Shown here piece after piece: positions 11,995 to 56,376 of a stretch of 64,000 nucleotides of DNA (position 1 is the stretch's first letter; each line of letters starts with the position of its first letter). The position numbers and the translations under genes are program-made. Source of the DNA: Paenibacillus tianjinensis (GTDB taxonomy: Bacteria > Bacillota > Bacilli > Paenibacillales > Paenibacillaceae). The notes beneath the pieces were generated by a model. The model was not told the origin of the DNA. It searched no databases and saw nothing but the letters and a program-made list of their open reading frames with translations. The stretch lies in assembly GCF_017086365.1 (NCBI RefSeq), contig NZ_CP070969.1:5022001-5086000 (forward strand). The letters run 5' to 3'.

Positions 11995-12666
11995 TTAATC
12001 CCAATAACTAAGAACATTACGGGCGAGCTCATACCTTACCTTTCGGATCCCCTCACCACGTTTTACCGGACTGAGCCAGCCTTTGTCACACAGCTTGTAT
12101 AATATTTGCCGCGCAGTCTTAGCATCGATTGAAAAATAATCAGAAACATCCTGTGGACGTACGGATCCGGACTGACGCATGACAAAACGCATGATTTCTC
12201 TTTCTCCGAGCAGTAATTTATCAACCGGAACAACTGCCGCCATATATCTGCTGAGCACCATGCGGAGCAAAGTTATGCACAATTCCGGACGTTGCTCCAC
12301 ATCATCATAGGCGAAGGAAATCACTTGGTAGCCCATGGCACACAGAAAAGTTTCTCGATTTAGTTCATTGCTATACCTCTGTCTATCCATATCCTTTACA
12401 TGTGCAGTGTAACCTTTGATCTCCAGCAGCAGTCTGATTGTTCCCGGCAAAAAAGCAAAGTCAGCAAAATAGGAGCGGCCGCGCCAGTCCAGAACCTCAT
12501 ACTCAGGATGAAGATCACAGAAATCACCGCGCAGCGGCCACCACACATTCTGAAGAAATAACGCTTCGGCGTGCCGATGACCTCGTTCTAGTCTCCCCTT
12601 GCGTTCTCCGGTTCTGGCATCCAGATGATACTGAATAAAGTCATCGATAATCTGTTTATGATTCAT
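11995..12666 (-). CDS. PD-(D/E)XK nuclease-like protein with C-terminal winged helix
   Basis: A 223-aa soluble protein. Residues about 45-95 contain the spacing of a PD-(D/E)XK/DUF559-like core: a conserved Asp in YFADFAFLP and the E-x-K of LLLEIKGY some 13 residues later, followed by a helix with RQRYSNELNRE and a strand VISFAYDDVE. Residues about 155-223 look like a winged helix-turn-helix (VRPQDVSDYFSIDAKTARQ). The combination suggests a DNA-acting enzyme or a regulator built on a nuclease fold. Whether it cleaves DNA is not shown. A strong terminator lies immediately upstream, so it needs its own promoter. I do not know a named homologue. Confidence 0.65.
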   Translation of the reverse strand: MNHKQIIDDFIQYHLDARTGERKGRLERGHRHAEALFLQNVWWPLRGDFCDLHPEYEVLDWRGRSYFADFAFLPGTIRLLLEIKGYTAHVKDMDRQRYSNELNRETFLCAMGYQVISFAYDDVEQRPELCITLLRMVLSRYMAAVVPVDKLLLGEREIMRFVMRQSGSVRPQDVSDYFSIDAKTARQILYKLCDKGWLSPVKRGEGIRKVRYELARNVLSYWD

Positions 12667-12786: not shown

Positions 12787-12980
12787 ACAACTAAAGGGAA
12801 ATACACCCGCTATAATACCAATTAAGCATGTTTCTCAAGCAATAAAGGGAATGCTACCCTTTAATTCATTCTATATCTTCGAATCGTTCTAACTTAATTG
12901 AATTAAAGGGAGGAAATCCCGTTACATTCTTCATTTCCCTTAATCGAGCTAAATTACCGGGAGTATTCCCCGTTAGTTAC
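12787..12980. repeat. Four-dyad intergenic element, GGGA type
   Basis: Four 21-bp imperfect palindromes are centred at 12802, 12853, 12914 and 12965, so the centre spacing is 51, 61 and 51 bp. The first two read TAAAGGGAA...CCC, while the last two are closer in reverse complement (TAACGGG...CCC), making the whole element a symmetric inverted arrangement. The reverse complement of dyad 3 (AACGGGATTT..CCCTTT) closely resembles the hairpin in the 51-bp tandem array at 26.5-28.7 kb. The 447-bp gap 12667-13114 holds only this element and the terminator. Confidence 0.7.
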
Positions 12981-26639: not shown

Positions 26640-28053
26640 GATGGCGTAAAGTAAGTTGTGTACCAAGATTTGGAGCCTAGTCAGGCAACAAAAAAGTAGG
26701 GTGTTCTCGGGATTGCGAAGTCCACCAAGAAAGGAACCCTACTCGATGACTATTCTACCCGAAAACATGTTAAATAATCTATTTGAAAATCTTGTCACCC
26801 AGTTTGTAAAAGATAATCTGGAGTCCATTATGAAAGCGGAAATCCAGCAATTCATGACCAGTGATGAGTCGGGGAATCACAACAGCCGTAACGGATACTA
26901 CACCCGGGATCTGCACACGAAATACGGTAATGTTGAGGATCTGGCCGTTCCTAGGGACCGTCAGGGAGTCTTCCAAACGCAGTTGTTCGAGCCTTACCAG
27001 CGGCGGGACGGGTGGCTAGAAGAGGCCGTCATCCAGATGTACAAAAGTGGCATGGGAACGCGAGATGTGGCCCGGTTCATTGAAAGTATGTTCGGCAGCC
27101 ACTACTCACCCACCACCGTCAGCAACATTACAGCTACGGTACTTGACGACATTCATCAGTGGCAGAAACGCCCGTTAAACAAACGCTACTCCGTGATCTA
27201 CCTGGACGGCCTATATGTGAAGCTCAAGCGCAGCACCGTGAGCGGAGAAGTCGTTTATTTCGCCATGGGTATCGACGAAGACGGTCACCGCCAGATTCTT
27301 GGCTTTTACGTAGGCGGCCAGGAGAGCGCAAACGGCTGGCGTGAGGTGCTCAAAGACCTTTACAACCGTGGTGTCCAGGAAGTCTTGCTGGGCGTATTTG
27401 ATGGGCTACCGGGACTCGATGCAGCGTTTCGTGAAACTTATCCGAAGGCGGATGTGCAGCATTGTATCGTCCACAAAGTGCGTTCGACCTTTCCGAAAAT
27501 TCGAGTTCAGCACAAAACGGAAGTCATTGAAGATCTGAAGACCATCTACACGGCTGCAGACCATGATCTGGCCCGGGCTGCGTTTGACACGGTGAAGGCC
27601 AAATGGGGCAAGCTCTACCCGAAAGAAATGCGGTCCTGGGAAGAACAGTTACCGACGCTGCTGACCTTTTACAAGTATCCCGTGCTCATAAAAGAAGCCA
27701 TCTACACATCCAATCCGATTGAACGAATGAACAAAGAAATCCGAAAACGCCTGAAGCCGATGAACAGCCTCACGAATATGGATGCGGCAGAGAAAATTGT
27801 CTACCTGGACGTCATCGATTACAACGAACGTTTTAGCGAACGAGTCATTCGCGGCTTCGGCGATCTGGAAGTAAAGAAGAAACTAAATGAGATGTTTGAA
27901 GCGCGATATCCAGCGCAGGCAGAGCCAGAGAAGTAACTCAAAATCCCTTGTTCTTTGGGGCGGGTCTCCCCCGCCCCAAAGAACATCTGCACTTACCAAC
28001 GAACACCCGAGAAGTTACATTCTGCTCTCTTACACAAACTTCTTGACGCTACC
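26640..28053 (+). mobile_element. IS256-family insertion sequence, complete, about 1414 bp
   Basis: The ends are imperfect inverted repeats: the left begins GATGGCGTAAAGTAAGTTG and the right (reverse complement) GGTAGCGTCAAGAAGTTTG, with 17 of 23 positions identical and both continuing into TTGTGTA, a typical IS256 end motif. The 8-bp direct repeat CGGTGTTG flanks it (26632-26639 and 28054-28061), the expected target duplication size. One intact transposase gene fills it. The inverted repeats and target duplication place the ends at base resolution. Confidence 0.9.
26746..27936 (+). CDS. IS256-family (Mutator-type) transposase
   Basis: A 396-aa protein from ATG 26746 (MTILPENMLNNLFENL), with AAGGA about 10 nt upstream. 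The DDE catalytic residues are placed by family motifs: Asp in IYLDGLYVKLK, Asp in GVFDGLPGLDAAF and Glu in SNPIERMNKEIRKR. The zinc-like C/H motif is seen as DVQHCIVHKVR. The N-terminal region is the usual DNA-binding domain. The frame is intact, so the element may be active. It mediates cut-out/copy-out transposition through a circular intermediate by family knowledge. Confidence 0.95.
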   Translation: MTILPENMLNNLFENLVTQFVKDNLESIMKAEIQQFMTSDESGNHNSRNGYYTRDLHTKYGNVEDLAVPRDRQGVFQTQLFEPYQRRDGWLEEAVIQMYKSGMGTRDVARFIESMFGSHYSPTTVSNITATVLDDIHQWQKRPLNKRYSVIYLDGLYVKLKRSTVSGEVVYFAMGIDEDGHRQILGFYVGGQESANGWREVLKDLYNRGVQEVLLGVFDGLPGLDAAFRETYPKADVQHCIVHKVRSTFPKIRVQHKTEVIEDLKTIYTAADHDLARAAFDTVKAKWGKLYPKEMRSWEEQLPTLLTFYKYPVLIKEAIYTSNPIERMNKEIRKRLKPMNSLTNMDAAEKIVYLDVIDYNERFSERVIRGFGDLEVKKKLNEMFEARYPAQAEPEK

Positions 28054-28706
28054 CGGTGTTGCGCCGGATTGGCGAAATCAACGGGATTTTTCCCTTTGAT
28101 TCTGCGGTGTCGCGCCGGATTGGCGGAATCAACGGGATTTTTCCCTTTGATTCTGCGGTGTCGCGCCGGATTAGCGAAATCAACGGGATTTTTCCCTTTG
28201 ATTCCGCGGTGTCGCGCCAGATTGACGAAATCAACGGGATTTTTCCCTTTGATTCTGCGGTGTCGCCCCGGTTTGGCGAAATCAACGGGATTTTTCCCTT
28301 TGATTCTGTGGGGTCGCGCCGGATTGGCGGAATCAACGGGATTTTTCCCTTTGATTCTGTGGGGTCGCGCCGGATTGGCGAAATCAACGGGATTTTTACC
28401 TTTGATTCTGCGATGTCGCGCCGGATTGGCGAAATCAATGGGATTTTTACCTTTGATTCTGCGGTGTCGCGCCAGATTGGCGGAATCAACGGGATTTTTA
28501 CCTTTGATTCTGCGGTGTCGCGCCGGATTGACGAAATCAACGGGATTTTTCCCTTTGATTCTGCGGTGTCGCCCCGGTTTGGCGAAATCAACGGGATTTC
28601 TCTCTTTGATTCCGCGGTGTCGCGCCGGATTGGCGAAATCAACGGGATTTTTCCCTTTGATTCTGTGGGGTCGCGCCGGGGTGTATATCACAGCAATAAA
28701 TAACGG

Positions 28707-28758
28707 TTTACTTTTCCAAAGGAATATTCTATATTATGAGTGAGTACTCACTCATAAT
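28707..28758 (+). promoter_or_regulatory. Promoter with overlapping perfect 26-bp operator palindrome
   Basis: The promoter is TTTACT (28707-28712), a 17-bp spacer and TATATT (28730-28735). Bases 28733-28758 form a perfect palindrome with half-site ATTATGAGTGAGT, covering the -10 and the transcription start. Binding there would block initiation. The likely ligand is the TetR-type protein encoded third in the same operon. The 5' UTR leads to the ribosome binding site AGGAG before 28781. Confidence 0.75.
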
Positions 28759-28780
28759 GATGAGAATCGAGGAGATCGAC

Positions 28781-29512
28781 ATGAATCAGGACACTCCGGT
28801 TATTACAGTAACCCATGTCAACAGAGCTTTTGGCAGCAAGGAGGTGCTTCGGGATATTAATCTTCAGGTAAATAAGGCAGAAACCTTTGGCCTTCTGGGT
28901 CCATCCGGTTCCGGTAAAACTACACTGGTGAAGCTTCTTACCGGCATTGATGAGGTCAGCTCAGGCGAAGTGCAGGTTATGGGAGTAAAGATTCCCGCAC
29001 TGCCGATGCTGCAGCAAATCGGATATATGGCCCAGTCTGATGCCTTATACACGGAGCTGAGCGCGAAGGAAAATCTGGAGTTTTTCGCCGCCCTTTATGG
29101 TCTTAAAGGCGGAAACCGCACACGGCGGATAGCCGACGTCATGGAACTGGTGAACCTGCAGGAGCATCTGCGCAAACGCGTCGATCAATATTCCGGAGGC
29201 ATGAAGCGGCGCTTGTCGCTGGCCATTGCTCTTTTGCATGAGCCCCCGCTGCTCATTCTTGACGAGCCTACCGTCGGTATTGACCCGGTGCTGCGCCAGT
29301 CCATTTGGCGGGAGCTGCGGGAGCTGAACCGTCAGGGCACTACCATTGTGCTGACAACTCACGTGATGGACGAGGCCGAGAAATGCGACCGGCTGGGGAT
29401 GATCCGGGACGGTGAGCTGCTCGGTGTAGATACTCCGGCCGGGCTGATGCAGGCGAGCGGCTCCGCAACGATTGAGGAAGCTTTTCTATACTATGGAGGT
29501 GCCCGCAAATGA
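28781..29512 (+). CDS. ABC transporter ATP-binding protein (drug/antimicrobial export type)
   Basis: The start ATG 28781 (MNQDTPVITVTHVNRAFG, 243 aa) has AGGAG 6 nt upstream; the upstream in-frame ATGs lie in the operator. Motifs are Walker A GPSGSGKT, signature YSGGMKRRL, Walker B LLILDEPTVG, and the H-loop TTHVMDE. It belongs to the single-domain ATPases that pair with ABC-2 permeases. The 3' end overlaps the permease start by 4 bases (ATGA), so the two form one exporter. Together with the TetR gene it makes a small self-regulated efflux operon. The substrate is unknown. Confidence 0.92.
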   Translation: MNQDTPVITVTHVNRAFGSKEVLRDINLQVNKAETFGLLGPSGSGKTTLVKLLTGIDEVSSGEVQVMGVKIPALPMLQQIGYMAQSDALYTELSAKENLEFFAALYGLKGGNRTRRIADVMELVNLQEHLRKRVDQYSGGMKRRLSLAIALLHEPPLLILDEPTVGIDPVLRQSIWRELRELNRQGTTIVLTTHVMDEAEKCDRLGMIRDGELLGVDTPAGLMQASGSATIEEAFLYYGGARK

Positions 29513-35644: not shown

Positions 35645-35892
35645 AATCAATATGCAATCGATGAACGGGATAGTAGTGAGTTGGATCTAGTCCTCAGCGA
35701 GCCGGGAGAGTGGAAACCGGTACAGGCCAACCCATGAAGCGCACCCGGGAGATGGACTTCTGAACTGACAGTAGGAAGCCCCGGCTGAAGACCGTTAACT
35801 TATGAGTGGCTAAACCGGCGGTTTAGCAACGAGAGTGGTACCGCGAGCGCAATAAGCCTTCGTCTCTTTTTGGAGATGAGGGCTTTTTCTTT
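35645..35892 (+). promoter_or_regulatory. T-box riboswitch in front of argS
   Basis: The hallmark T-box sequence AACGAGAGTGGTACCGCG is at 35829-35846. It is followed by a terminator hairpin (AAGCCTTCGTCTC ... GAGATGAGGGCTT, then TTTTCTTTT, 35854-35892). Upstream lies the Stem I region with an AGTA-type purine-rich bulge and paired arms. Uncharged tRNA would stabilise the antiterminator and turn on argS. The specifier codon is probably CGC (Arg) in the stretch GAAGCGCACC at about 35737-35746, but I cannot fold the leader by hand with certainty. Confidence 0.85.
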
Positions 35893-35932
35893 TGCATATA
35901 TTACGATTCAACATTTTCAGGAGGTCATAACC

Positions 35933-37804
35933 ATGTTAAGCCAGCTTATCAAAGACAGTTTGGAAAAGAGCGTAAGTCATGTATTTACAGCCCTCGGCGC
36001 TGACGGTGCAGAACAGGTAACGATTGTGCTTGAACAGCCCGCTAATCCCGATTTCGGCGACTACTCCAGCAACATTGCCATGCAGCTGGCAAAGGTACTG
36101 CGCAAAGCCCCTATGGCCATTGCGGAGCTGATAACAACTGAGCTACGTCAGTCAGAGAGTCTTGGGGCACTATTTCAAAAAGTCGACATCGCGGCACCGG
36201 GATTCATTAATCTGTACATTGACTGGCGGGAGTGGGCCGGACGCAGGTTTGAACTGCCCACATCTGCAGGGGAAAAGGTCATCATCGAACATACCTCTGT
36301 CAATCCCAATAAATCGATGCATATAGGCCACCTGAGAAACTCGTGTATCGGGGACGCGCTGGTAAGAATTTTGCGTAGAACCGGGCACAACGTAGAGGTC
36401 CATAATTATGTGGACGATCTCGGCAATCAGCTGGCAGATACGGTGGTTGGGCTGCTGAATGTGCCGCTTGCAGGTGAACATGTGCGTTTTGGTGATTATT
36501 GCTGGGATATTTACGCCGGTGTGAACAAGGAATATGCGCTGCATCCTGAGACGCTGCACAAACGGACGGAGATTCTTCATGCTTTGGAAGAAGGGAAAGG
36601 CAATACAGCCTGGCTGGGTAAACTGGTTGCGGAGCGGATTGTCAAAGAGCATGTGGAGGAGATGAAGGGGTTCGGCATCCGCTATGATTTGCTCGTCTGG
36701 GAGAGCAGCATTGTGAAGGAAGGCTTCTGGTCATCCGCGTTCGCGCTGCTGGAACAGACGGAAGTATTTGTGCAGGAGAAGGAGGGGAAGCTTGCGGGCT
36801 GCTGGATATTGAAGCAACCTGCGGAGGATGAAGGAGAGGCAGATTCTGAAGAGCATCACAAAGATAAGGTGCTGGTGCGCTCGAACGGAATTCTGACCTA
36901 TACCGCCAAGGATATTGCCTATCATCTCTGGAAGTTTGGACTTTTGGATAAGGATTTCGCCTACAGCGAGTTTAATGCCAGACTTTGGACGACGGGATTA
37001 ACCGGGGAGCAGCTGCCTTTTGGCGGGGCAGACCGGGTGGTCAATGTGATTGACTACCGTCAGGAATATCCGCAGGCGATGGTCAAGCAGGCGCTTGAGG
37101 TGCTGGGGTTCAAGGGGCAGGCTGAGAAGCTGCATCACGTAAGCTATGGCGTTGTTTCACTCAGTCCCGCCTCCGCAGCGGAGCTTGGCATCGACACCAC
37201 GGAAGGCAAATCCTCTTACGCCATGTCCGGCCGCCAGGGTATCGGCATCAAGGTCACCGAGCTGGTGCAGCTGATGGAGCATACCATTGAAGCCACCCGG
37301 TCTGATAAAACCGGCCTCTCCAGCCGGCTCATCGCTACCGCAGCCATCCGGTATTATCTGCTGCGCTTCAATCTGGGAACGGAGATTATTTTTGATTTCA
37401 AGCAGGCTACGGAGATTTCCGGCAATACGGGAGTTTATCTGATGTACACCTACGCGCGTGCAGGCAGTGTGCTCAGCAAAGCTGTTGTTCCTGTTAATGT
37501 TGAAGAAGAGGACGCTCTACCGGAATTCCCGTCGCCGCTGGAAAAGGCAGAGCTTGCGCTGCTGAGACATCTCAGCACCTGGCAGGATACTCTCTACAGT
37601 GCAAGCGTTCTGCTGACGCCGAATGTCATCTGCAACTATGCGCATACTCTGGCTTCGCTGTTTAACAACTTTTACTCAGCCTGCCCGATCCTGAAAGGTG
37701 AAGCCGCCCGGGTCTCCTTCCGCCTCTGGCTAACGTACAAATTCCAGGAGACGCTGGGGGATGTGCTGGACGTGCTGGGACTGCCGAAACCGGAACGGAT
37801 GTAA
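35933..37804 (+). CDS. argS: Arginyl-tRNA synthetase, divergent type
   Basis: The start ATG 35933 (MLSQLIKDSLEKSVSHV, 623 aa) follows AGGAGGT. Class I synthetase charging tRNA-Arg. Present are the N-terminal additional domain (about 1-110, with NPDFGDYSSNIAMQLAK), the HIGH box (HIGH at 130-133, in NPNKSMHIGHLRNS), a degenerate KMSK region (MSGRQGIGIK) and the helical DALR anticodon-binding domain at the C-terminus. It is longer than the usual ~556-residue bacterial enzyme, and the HIGH-box context (NPNKSMHIGHLRNS instead of NPTGPLHVGHAR) points to the archaeal/eukaryotic-like group. It may be a second ArgRS, induced by arginine-tRNA starvation through the T-box. Confidence 0.9.
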   Translation: MLSQLIKDSLEKSVSHVFTALGADGAEQVTIVLEQPANPDFGDYSSNIAMQLAKVLRKAPMAIAELITTELRQSESLGALFQKVDIAAPGFINLYIDWREWAGRRFELPTSAGEKVIIEHTSVNPNKSMHIGHLRNSCIGDALVRILRRTGHNVEVHNYVDDLGNQLADTVVGLLNVPLAGEHVRFGDYCWDIYAGVNKEYALHPETLHKRTEILHALEEGKGNTAWLGKLVAERIVKEHVEEMKGFGIRYDLLVWESSIVKEGFWSSAFALLEQTEVFVQEKEGKLAGCWILKQPAEDEGEADSEEHHKDKVLVRSNGILTYTAKDIAYHLWKFGLLDKDFAYSEFNARLWTTGLTGEQLPFGGADRVVNVIDYRQEYPQAMVKQALEVLGFKGQAEKLHHVSYGVVSLSPASAAELGIDTTEGKSSYAMSGRQGIGIKVTELVQLMEHTIEATRSDKTGLSSRLIATAAIRYYLLRFNLGTEIIFDFKQATEISGNTGVYLMYTYARAGSVLSKAVVPVNVEEEDALPEFPSPLEKAELALLRHLSTWQDTLYSASVLLTPNVICNYAHTLASLFNNFYSACPILKGEAARVSFRLWLTYKFQETLGDVLDVLGLPKPERM

Positions 37805-37888: not shown

Positions 37889-38080
37889 GTTTAACTGTAC
37901 TTCGTACAACTATAACCCGTGAGAATGAGCATTTAATGAGAATAAATGCATTTCGTACAACTATAATCGGTGAAATCGACCCACATTGGCAATTCCGGGC
38001 AAAATAGATGTACAAAGTGCACCTAAACTAATTTGCCGGATAACACAGTATTTTTAATTGCACAGAGTACACTTATTATA
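37889..38080. repeat. Four-dyad intergenic element, TGTAC type (copy 1)
   Basis: Four cores start at 37896 (TGTACTTCGTACAAC), 37947 (TGCATTTCGTACAAC), 38009 (TGTACAAAGTGCACC) and 38059 (TGCACAGAGTACACT), with intervals of 51, 62 and 50 bp. Cores 3 and 4 match cores 1 and 2 better in reverse complement, so the element is symmetric around about 37985. It fills the gap downstream of argS; nothing else is seen in 37805-38120. Confidence 0.8.
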
Positions 38081-38123
38081 CCCGCGGGTGGTAAACAGTC
38101 TTCTTCTCATCCTCCGGACGCAC

Positions 38124-38296
38124 AAACAGCCTTCCCGGAGGAAGGCTGTTACAGTGACGTCCCGGAAGGGATGCAGCCCTTTCGGGCTGATTGCGATGTA
38201 ATCCTAACGATGCTTATGCTTCAACGTCCCCCCCTTTCGGGGTTCTCATCCCCCCGAACGCAAACAGCCTTCCCGGAGGAAGGCTGTTACAGTGAC
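38124..38296 (-). repeat. Duplicated tRNA-Arg 3' end and hairpins (second locus)
   Basis: Downstream of the minus-strand tRNA, the hairpin AACAGCCTTCC/GGAAGGCTGTT occurs twice (38262-38288 and 38124-38150). Next to the second hairpin a copy of the tRNA tail (CCCTTCCGGGACGTC) recurs about 138 bp from the original. The order and spacing are the same as at 19091-19284. Here the hairpins are followed by TTTG rather than a long T run. Confidence 0.75.
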
Positions 38297-38369
38297 GTCC
38301 CGGAAGGGATTCGAACCCCCGACCGTGCGCTTAGAAGGCGCATGCTCTATCCAACTGAGCTACCGGGAC
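38296..38369 (-). tRNA. tRNA-Arg, anticodon TCT (second copy)
   Basis: A 74-nt cloverleaf identical to 19032-19105 except in the D loop (AGTTGGATA instead of AGCCGGATA). The acceptor is GTCCCGG/CCGGGAC and the anticodon TCT. It lies on the opposite strand to the first copy, so the two copies bracket 19 kb as an inverted repeat. No gene is seen in 38370-38567. Confidence 0.95.
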
Positions 38370-38567
38370 ATGTCGATGACAGGACTGATTATTAACACTA
38401 TGTATTAACGCAACGTTATTTATTATACCTCATTGAGATAATTTTTCAAGGCTGGAGACGAAGAAAAACAATTTCTGCCCCCGGCAGCGGATGAAGCGGC
38501 GCATAGCGCCGCTCACTTTCCGTCTTCCGCCGCCGGAGCAGAGGCAGCAGCATCTCTGCTGCAGCCC

Positions 38568-51410: not shown

Positions 51411-51600
51411 TTTAGCTGTACTTTGCGCAATTAAATTAAGCGAATAAGGCTGTAAATCAGCTTTAATTGTACTTCGTACAACTAAAAATCTGCATTTACT
51501 CCGTATGAGCCCCTTTTCCGCATAGTAATTGCACAGAATGCAGTTACATTGTTATGGGTGTAACTTTTGCTGCTTTTAATGTACTAAGTGCAGTTAAACG
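51411..51600. repeat. Four-dyad intergenic element, TGTAC type (copy 2)
   Basis: Cores start at 51417 (TGTACTTTGCGCAAT), 51468 (TGTACTTCGTACAAC), 51530 (TGCACAGAATGCAGT) and 51580 (TGTACTAAGTGCAGT), with intervals of 51, 62 and 50 bp, identical to the copy at 37889-38080. Cores 3-4 are inverted relative to 1-2. The element lies between the pgpA stop and the terminator, so it would be transcribed as a 3' UTR. Confidence 0.8.
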
Positions 51601-56042: not shown

Positions 56043-56376
56043 CATGATTGTATTTTGTACAATGGATTATGCCGATATCACTGTAAAAGCAGCTTCTGCT
56101 GCATTTTGTGCAATAGAAAATTCTCCGGTAGCGCTAAAAGGGCTTTCTAATGCAGACTCTGCAACAGAAAGCCCTTTGTCCTTCATATAGCTGTATTTTA
56201 TACAATTAAAAACCCCGTAAGCCCGCACCTGTTCGATATAACTGTATACTGTGCAACTAAAACTGCCCAATTCGGCTAAAACTAGCTTTATATGCCTGTT
56301 TAAGTGTACAGAATACAACTAAAGGGATGACTTGAAGCTACATGGCATTTTTAGTTGTACAAAGTGCAATTAAGCC
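56043..56376. repeat. Seven-dyad intergenic element, TGTAC type (copy 3, extended)
   Basis: Cores start at 56049, 56100, 56151, 56192, 56243, 56305 and 56356. The last four reproduce the 51/62/51 spacing of the other copies. The first three add two further exact 51-bp steps, joined by a 41-bp step. Core examples are TGTATTTTGTACAAT, TGCATTTTGTGCAAT, TGTATACTGTGCAAC and TGTACAAAGTGCAAT. The 500-bp gap 55957-56456 contains this element and no credible gene; a minus-strand open frame over it is a consequence of the repeat. Confidence 0.8.
56137..56177. repeat. Perfect 12-bp stem enclosing one dyad
   Basis: AAAGGGCTTTCT (56137-56148) pairs with AGAAAGCCCTTT (56166-56177), and between them sits the dyad TGCAGACTCTGCA. 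On the minus strand the stem is followed by TTAGC, so it could act as a terminator for the HAD phosphatase gene 280 bp upstream. Confidence 0.6.

Follow-up and report, generated by a model that had tools for sequence, protein, structure and literature searches.

Within a 64,000-bp stretch of the Paenibacillus tianjinensis chromosome (NZ_CP070969.1, positions 5,022,001 to 5,086,000; hereafter the window, with coordinates counted from its first base), we analyzed an intergenic element consisting of four palindromic dyads at nearly constant spacing. These phased four-dyad arrays, with their nucleosome-like composition, are a real and widespread system, undescribed as far as the open-licence PMC literature shows, and, judged from sequence comparison, each array class tends to be tied to a member of one nuclease-winged-helix protein family. 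Arrays and cognate nucleases together point to an unrecognised DNA-coiling system, and we assign a probability of roughly 0.7 to the explanation as a whole, namely that dimers of the cognate protein coil the DNA on the phased arrays.

Four-dyad arrays in the window

The window contains the following arrays and array-linked gene:

37892..38075, four-dyad array of class A (TARYTGYAYTTYRTRCARYTA); dyads at 37892 and 37943 (+) and at 38005 and 38055 (-), intervals 51, 62, 50; arginyl-tRNA synthetase gene (35870-37804) on one side, tRNA-Arg gene (38294-38370) on the other
51413..51596, four-dyad array of class A; dyads 51413/51464/51526/51576, intervals 51, 62, 50; between a convergent PgpA-type gene and metallo-beta-lactamase-fold gene
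56188..56372, four-dyad array of class A; dyads 56188/56239/56301/56352, intervals 51, 62, 51
56045..56116 (+), first two dyads of a partial array of class B (CT-flanked) that closely precedes the 56188 array
12792..12975, four-dyad array of class D (TARNGGGAnnnnnTCCCNYTA), spacing 51/61/51, scan score 89
11995..12666 (-), nuclease-winged-helix gene (223 aa, P0001), start about 125 bp from the class D array
28054..28679, 12.3 tandem copies (92% matches) of a 51-bp unit containing the dyad AATCAACGGGATTTTTCCCTTTGATT

The three class A arrays stand where the sequence-only reading had placed them, with the cores and dyad start intervals quoted there (51/62/50, 51/62/50 and 51/62/51), and its symmetric array of palindromes is borne out by the orientation of the four dyads (>> <<). 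A class-blind scan, which ignores the core sequence and demands four similar 21-mers at about 50-51/61-63/50-52 in this orientation, gave these arrays scores of 95, 89 and 92, compared with a maximum of 63 in five 64-kb shuffles. With up to three mismatches, the single core matched six times in the window against 0.76 expected, a count reached by 0/100 shuffles. The class D, tandem and partial arrays come in addition to what had been described before. The period of the tandem array is that of the four-dyad arrays (51 bp), which makes it a candidate member of the family.

Arrays in the genome and in related genomes

The earlier count of three loci was far too low. A sequence model built from 14 copies (R1) gave 94 rows at E<=1, both strands counted, in the 6.27-Mb genome, and dyad scoring of the fetched loci yielded 33 dyad clusters (dyads scoring at least 12 with a neighbour in register), of which 27 contain at least four dyads. 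Among 60 genomes including this one, 32 were matched at E<=0.001 and 22 had at least 19 rows, again with both strands counted and at most about 40 candidates scored per genome.

Fixed spacing recurs in these further copies. In 103 distinct class A/B arrays, the outer intervals d1 and d3 were 51 bp in 173/206 cases (50 in 23, 52 in nine, 49 in one) and the central interval d2 was 62 bp in 90/103 (61 in eight, 63 in five), in a measurement that allowed 47-55 bp for d1 and d3 and 57-66 bp for d2. Most copies came from a model that itself contains the spacing, so the plain dyad list and the dyad scan provide the less biased support: among the first 100 of 280 forward matches, dyad neighbours within 200 bp lay at 50, 51, 61, 62 or 113 bp, with one exception at 22 and one at 153.

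Regarding gene setting, 14/33 clusters of this genome lie between convergent, 18/33 between tandem and 1/33 between divergent genes, according to simple heuristic gene calls and with two gaps containing two clusters each. For comparison, 464 kb contained 8 convergent, 18 divergent and 66 tandem intergenic gaps that were 200 bp or longer. Only 5/33 clusters fall in the 2.0-4.3 Mb region of the genome, where 12.1 would be expected (nominal p 0.01, for a region picked after seeing the data).

The single element family of the earlier description turned out to be one class among many that share a geometry. The class-blind scan retrieved arrays with the dyads TARNGGGA..TCCCNYTA (window 12792) and TARTTGGA..TCCAYYTA (several loci of this genome), as well as types with CGGACTCAG and with GTGGAAAAAGG, among others. 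Where no four-dyad array was present, 51-bp tandem scores reached 59 (L332: 58, L416: 55, L338: 52, L408: 51; the highest, 59, at L364) compared with 34-40 in the control, and several such loci gain four-dyad arrays once the scan accepts steps of 52 bp. Repeated units (GGTTCCC..GTATACGCGGCCTGGC) are strung together beside a metallo-beta-lactamase-fold gene at L137, L138 and L139 (G031, G028 and G034); L137 and L139 also contain arrays of other classes, and similar dyads are visible in L138. A long run of 51-bp tandem units with a GTCCC..GGGAC-like dyad is found in G006 (L182:11800-12800).

AT rhythm and helical phase of the spacers

The spacers share almost no sequence, which agrees with the earlier claim that spacing is more conserved than sequence. 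Between 26 arrays of this genome, in-register spacer identity averages 0.30-0.33, and the objection that the copies are recent duplicates of one sequence therefore fails. Local alignment of spacers in this genome gave a mean score of 7.8 versus 7.3 for shuffled sequence, a slight excess that is probably due to the AT rhythm common to the spacers.

When the two halves are averaged, AT content varies between about 0.25 and 0.93 and peaks near positions 0, 10, 21, 32, 42, 51, 72, 83 and 92, counted from the first dyad. Fitting a sine to the spacers gave an R2 of 0.72 at 10.1 bp in the 60 arrays with exactly 51/62/51 spacing, to which this fit was confined; 90% of them exceed the 95th percentile of pooled flank power. 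In the same arrays, AA/TT is commonest where GC-rich steps are rarest, an alternation known from wrapped DNA. Arrays of mixed class (n=53) showed an R2 of 0.61 at 10.2 bp, with a signal fading beyond about 93 bp from the centre, and 13/14 listed class D, E and F arrays had a 10.2-bp AT power above that of both flanks, the exception being the class D array of the window. Measured from the middle of the array, the dyad centres are at 31 and 82 bp, corresponding to 3.0 and 8.0 turns of 10.2 bp. The approximately 10-bp AT/GC rhythm expected of nucleosome-like wrapping is thus present in the arrays, weakly so in the class D array of the window.

Persistence and turnover at orthologous sites

In 13 hand-picked orthologous pairs, two of which share one array and some of which are between relatives, substitutions amounted to 1.4% in the dyad core, 6.3% in the rest of the dyads and 12.4% in the spacers. 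The array after the pgpA-type gene (51413) has orthologues in G009, G011, G032, G022 and G017, spaced 51/62/51 (63 once, in G022). The G017 orthologue (L141) has outer bases of the TCG/CCG..CGA/CGG type, not TA..TA, and represents a further subclass; no class-A-clade gene was detected in this genome. By reading of the listed matches, about 20 of 69 array loci of relatives have similar sequence on both sides of an array in this genome, some of them in genomes where the protein next to the 51413 array shares 67-86% identity with the one here.

Turnover also occurs, since the argS array is 69% identical to that of G009 (127/183) amid surroundings that are 92-95% alike. In the G009 counterpart of the 56188 array, bases have been lost in dyad 3 and one spacer, and the partial array at 56045 is longer in G009, this genome lacking about 62 bp that hold the third dyad there. 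At one locus with the same flanks, the array is of class E here (4473975-4474159) and of class A in G022, which may reflect a class switch.

Among the 70 listed most similar pairs, out of 290 over the cut in 104 arrays, a spacer identity of at least 0.79 was always accompanied by at least one homologous flank, and therefore none of these is a clear copy at a new site. An origin as miniature inverted-repeat transposable elements or by recent duplication was rejected, as no clear homology was found outside the dyads and whole-length homology was lacking. A G009 array resembles the one at 1588917 here at 80% over 96 bp, a size equalled between other unrelated array pairs. At the single locus compared for an empty site (5166213, against G009), similarity ends and synteny is broken, leaving no clean empty site; nor was an empty/filled allele pair found for nuclease gene plus array.

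A nuclease-winged-helix family is linked to the arrays

No recurrent array-neighbour gene emerged from an all-against-all BLAST of the 171 genes near arrays of this genome, in which the largest cluster held five members, one of them an ABC ATPase. The nuclease lead came from one paralogue pair in this comparison (window 11995-12666 and L076:2084-2758), each member of which adjoins an array. P0001 comprises a Vsr/homing-endonuclease-like PD-(D/E)XK domain and a C-terminal winged helix; its Pfam matches, several near or below the cut-off, are to DUF559/MTES_1575 nuclease and winged-helix families, and relatives are mostly annotated as 'DUF559' or 'hypothetical'. The predicted structure has the expected catalytic-domain fold and is related to a homing endonuclease. 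E34, D69, E82 and H89 are invariant and K84 is at least 90% conserved in 48 aligned sequences, all of them close relatives at least 60% identical to the query. Set against the EDxHD motif of homing endonucleases, class A proteins have ExD and class F proteins ExQ.

An array was found in 23/30 and 16/19 loci in two sets of homologue loci of about 2-4 kb, a GC-rich match at L308 (score 75) being left out of the 30-locus count, compared with 23/290 control chunks of 3.7 kb of real DNA (this genome 2/100, G006 3/50, G035 0/25, G014 3/25, G009 15/90). In 67/80 named loci, the best 80 of 279 relatives, an array lies within 800 bp of the gene, 56 of the 67 on its 3' side; spacings of 50-51 had given 53/80, and the search was widened after the misses were seen, by allowing 52 and raising the threshold from 80 to 82. 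Array density was 0.465/kb near the gene, 0.019/kb further out and 0.012/kb in the control (7 in 600 kb), and controls at the same setting gave three arrays in 200 kb of G006 and none in 200 kb of shuffled sequence. The titles of the named loci belong to Paenibacillus, Cohnella, Fontibacillus, Gordonibacillus, one Paenibacillaceae bacterium and four 'Bacillus sp. FJAT' loci; relatives also exist in other families of the order. In G001, four similar arrays lie beside the gene.

Across the 20 genomes searched for the family, 9/10 class A-rich genomes contain 4-7 matches (G017 has 2), and there were none in G004, G005, G006, G008 and G035, one in G002 and two each in G014, G033 and G052. A tblastn search of 50,697 phage records gave no match, a scan of viral contigs with two peptide patterns found no relative, and the plasmid matches came from a single record, a 2.7-Mb replicon.

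Dyad classes parallel protein relationships

A tree was built from 47 proteins, excluding G002_z (contig edge) and the G052 fragments, and dyad labels were assigned to it by eye. In this tree, an F clade goes with CGGAC dyads, a D clade with GGGA..TCCC and an A clade with TTGYA..TRCAA-like dyads, including the CT-flanked form in G012. Four G proteins are associated with GTGGAAAA dyads, and a CCTGC-type group holds together. One group is mixed, containing AGAGGTA dyads and one AAGGACA, with CGGGATTTATACCG nearby, and some loci have no array. Protein and dyad distances were correlated (Mantel rho 0.404, n=43, reached by 2/2000 permutations), and for 21/43 proteins the nearest protein neighbour was within the five best dyad matches, compared with about 5 expected. 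This set was derived from 53 arrays of the named loci, with a spacing of 50-51 only, reduced to 43 proteins by removing near-identical ones and incomplete arrays.

A class-A-clade gene (at least 59% identity) occurs in 16 genomes, of which 15 have at least 19 class A rows, compared with 7/44 genomes without such a gene; the identity cut was fixed after the list had been seen and the genomes are related, so that a p value for this comparison cannot be taken as a probability. As in REPIN/RAYT systems, a distinct protein gene is thus found beside its own repeat class.

A possible DNA-coiling assembly

How could these arrays function? The array may be the chromosomal docking site of its cognate dimeric nuclease-winged-helix protein. 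Four dimers would occupy the four dyads on one face of the helix, with dyad centres about 3 and about 8 turns on either side of the centre, and would hold approximately 185 bp (18 turns of 10.2 bp) in a bent coil. A distance of 113 bp, equal to 11 turns, separates dyad 1 from dyad 3 and dyad 2 from dyad 4, and the members of each pair could lie stacked on successive gyres. The spacers would only have to bend, which would explain why their AT/GC rhythm is kept and their sequence is not. If the protein family duplicated and diverged, and the recognition sequence of each paralogue diverged alongside, the dyad classes would result. Direct binding of the arrays by the cognate protein is very probable, and wrapping of the DNA is probable as well. 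The role we favour is that a domesticated homing-type nuclease family builds a site-specific assembly on the chromosome, at the 3' ends of genes and in the gaps between convergent ones. That this assembly acts as a topology or transcription boundary is a tentative suggestion, with the odds somewhat against it. Slightly short of even odds is the fuller account, in which a protein family descended from homing endonucleases became a bacterial system for coiling DNA whose address code evolves: four dimers per paralogue on its own 185-bp class, a nucleosome-sized coil, dozens of fixed sites, several codes per genome and loci able to switch class.

Several observations weigh against the coiling explanation. 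The flanks are rippled too, with a best flank fit of R2 0.15 at 10.3 bp in the 60-array set and R2 0.45 at 11.7 bp in the 53 mixed-class arrays, and in the class D array of the window the AT power is 0.58 against 0.80 and 0.06 in its flanks. Concerning the gene-array linkage, 13/80 named loci have no array at the final threshold, and G006 has 51-bp-period dyad arrays and no detected member of the nuclease-winged-helix family. Seven genomes are rich in class A without a detected clade gene (G016, G017, G023, G025, G036, G039 and G045; two of them only 71-72% complete). Conversely, G041 has a class-A-clade gene and four class A rows, and G047 has seven family matches and one class A row; the array found beside one G047 gene is of another class. 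In this genome, the coding sequence of the class-A-clade gene (2451179-2451807, L076) changes frame within the winged helix, owing to either a real frameshift or a sequence error, and the class A arrays look intact all the same. The structural model has a mean predicted local distance difference test (pLDDT) score of 80.8, with values under 50 for residues 87-93, next to the presumed active site.

Alternative explanations

The strongest alternative is a selfish homing or mobile system, in which the nuclease would cut or nick sites related to the arrays and, by recombination, spread arrays or gene and array together in a RAYT/REPIN-like manner. The relation to a homing endonuclease, the conserved catalytic residues, the patchy presence between genera and the four similar arrays in G001 would all suit it. 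It nevertheless appears unlikely, considering that the listed pairs of high spacer identity share a flank, that arrays persist at orthologous loci and that phage records and viral contigs gave no matches and plasmids a single record.

The most similar repeat systems we are aware of are those of the REPIN/RAYT type (Bertels and Rainey 2011, PMC3116915). They consist of dispersed palindromic intergenic units in several classes per genome, and every class is paired with a distinct protein gene that lies close to the repeats of that class. The arrays resemble them in being dispersed, palindromic and intergenic, in having classes paired with protein genes, and in their less conserved spacers. According to that paper, however, REPINs contain two repetitive extragenic palindromic (REP) sequences with predicted hairpins, depend on a Y1 transposase and are thought to spread by transposition, whereas the arrays have four dyads, a nuclease-winged-helix protein, arms without covariation, near-random spacers with an AT rhythm, and sites kept between orthologues. 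REPIN/RAYT-type copying to new sites was not observed among the listed array pairs, in a comparison that lacked several strains of one species. A RAYT/Y1 transposase was rejected as the partner: PF01797 has one match here (3138132) and none in G006, and the array-linked genes encode nuclease-winged-helix proteins; the surroundings of the 13 PF01797 loci were not scanned for arrays. The nearest nuclease systems are the EDxHD homing endonuclease I-Bth0305I and Vsr-like/DUF559 nucleases (PMC3943268; PMC12907096). The array-linked protein differs from these in its C-terminal winged helix and its position beside intact arrays, with dozens more dispersed, and no homing was seen. No intron was noticed at the array-linked nuclease genes, where introns were not specifically looked for.

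Another possibility is that a general wrapping protein (an Lrp/AsnC octamer or a RemA-like ring) or gyrase binds the arrays and that the nuclease gene is a neighbour for some other reason. Gyrase would be in keeping with arrays between convergent genes. TTGYA-N5-TRCAA, the core of class A, is similar to what we take to be the Ss-LrpB site; a search of an Lrp review for TTGYA gave no match. Wrapping of DNA around an octamer or several dimers is described for Lrp-like proteins (PMC2995911). We consider a general wrapper or gyrase of low probability, because a single conserved wrapper would leave unexplained why dyad classes track the relatedness of the nucleases. Moreover, PF01037 proteins do not obviously track class A in 22 genomes: one orthologue is shared, with a similar helix-turn-helix in the 10/20 rows that were readable (six class A-positive and four negative), and in G045, with its 22 class A rows, the only PF01037 match is this shared orthologue. 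Within these 22 genomes and the 10/20 rows compared for the helix-turn-helix, Lrp/AsnC was rejected as class determinant. Lrp/AsnC (PMC2995911), RemA (PMC8481266) and a tetrameric bacterial histone (PMC12701072) are described as multimeric DNA-coiling proteins, and coiling is what we propose here; the arrays differ from them in the gene family and in their class-specific dyads at a fixed 5/6/5-turn spacing.

Similarly improbable is a self mark in defence, where an array-bound nuclease would be inactive on the chromosome and act on foreign DNA. The nuclease fold with its conserved catalytic residues fits such a role, and weak matches were obtained in the defence library, the best at E 7e-4 and most of them in the helix-turn-helix part. 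PADLOC and NCBIfam, in turn, produced weak partial matches only, there was no strong defence-family match, and nothing else points to defence, neighbouring genes not having been screened for defence partners.

That leaves the question of whether the dyads fold. In 125 class A dyads (score at least 12, neighbour in register), Watson-Crick pairing at the variable pairs 3-19, 4-18, 7-15 and 9-13 was not above that of shuffled arms; pair 7-15, for example, had 58 Watson-Crick combinations versus 64.5. Only pairs 1-21 and 2-20 covary, because the TA-flanked and CT-flanked subclasses separate there. The likeness of dyads 1 and 4 was 0.540 versus 0.508 shuffled (reached by 6/500 shuffles), dyads 1 and 2 were marginally alike (27/500) and dyads 2 and 3 were not (281/500), in a crude comparison whose set contains related arrays and which says little either way. 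No Rfam family reached its gathering score at the array. Hairpins in RNA or single-stranded DNA (terminators, 3' untranslated region elements or REP-like palindromes) are scarcely credible in view of the variable pairs and the Rfam result and on account of the helical-phase spacing and AT rhythm, which have no obvious RNA reading, even though the cores are palindromic, most arrays here lie downstream of at least one gene and dyads 1 and 4 are slightly alike. Of the two kinds of selection proposed by the sequence-only reading, helical phase is supported by the AT periodicity of 10.1-10.2 bp; folding of single dyads into hairpins found no support in the cores. The dyads look like protein sites instead, and a sequence-specific protein is the likely cause of the selection on helical phase.

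Implications and further features of the window

Among titles and abstract starts of the open-licence PMC literature, we recognised no description of the arrays or of the nuclease-array pairing. If the coiling explanation is true, a nuclease family would build a sequence-addressed bacterial DNA-coiling particle that comes together with its target set. The natural paralogues and dyad classes would then represent a data set for the joint change of DNA-binding specificity and target arrays, and could also show the effect of phased wrapping at gene ends. They would further constitute a REPIN-like pairing of protein and repeat without a transposase basis.

The tandem array at 28054-28679 is flanked by a Mutator-type transposase gene (26656-27936), which matches Pfam Transposase_mut, and an ABC transporter ATPase gene (28736-29512). 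This transposase gene is 97% identical to the one at L037:2643-3923, and dyad repeats lie within about 120 bp of each. Downstream of the argS array, two identical 50-bp repeats are located at 38123-38172 and 38261-38310; the second reaches as far as the tRNA-Arg gene and overlaps it, pointing to duplication of part of the tRNA end. A T-box leader (35652-35870) directly precedes the arginyl-tRNA synthetase open reading frame on its 5' side, which starts with a TTG codon at 35870.
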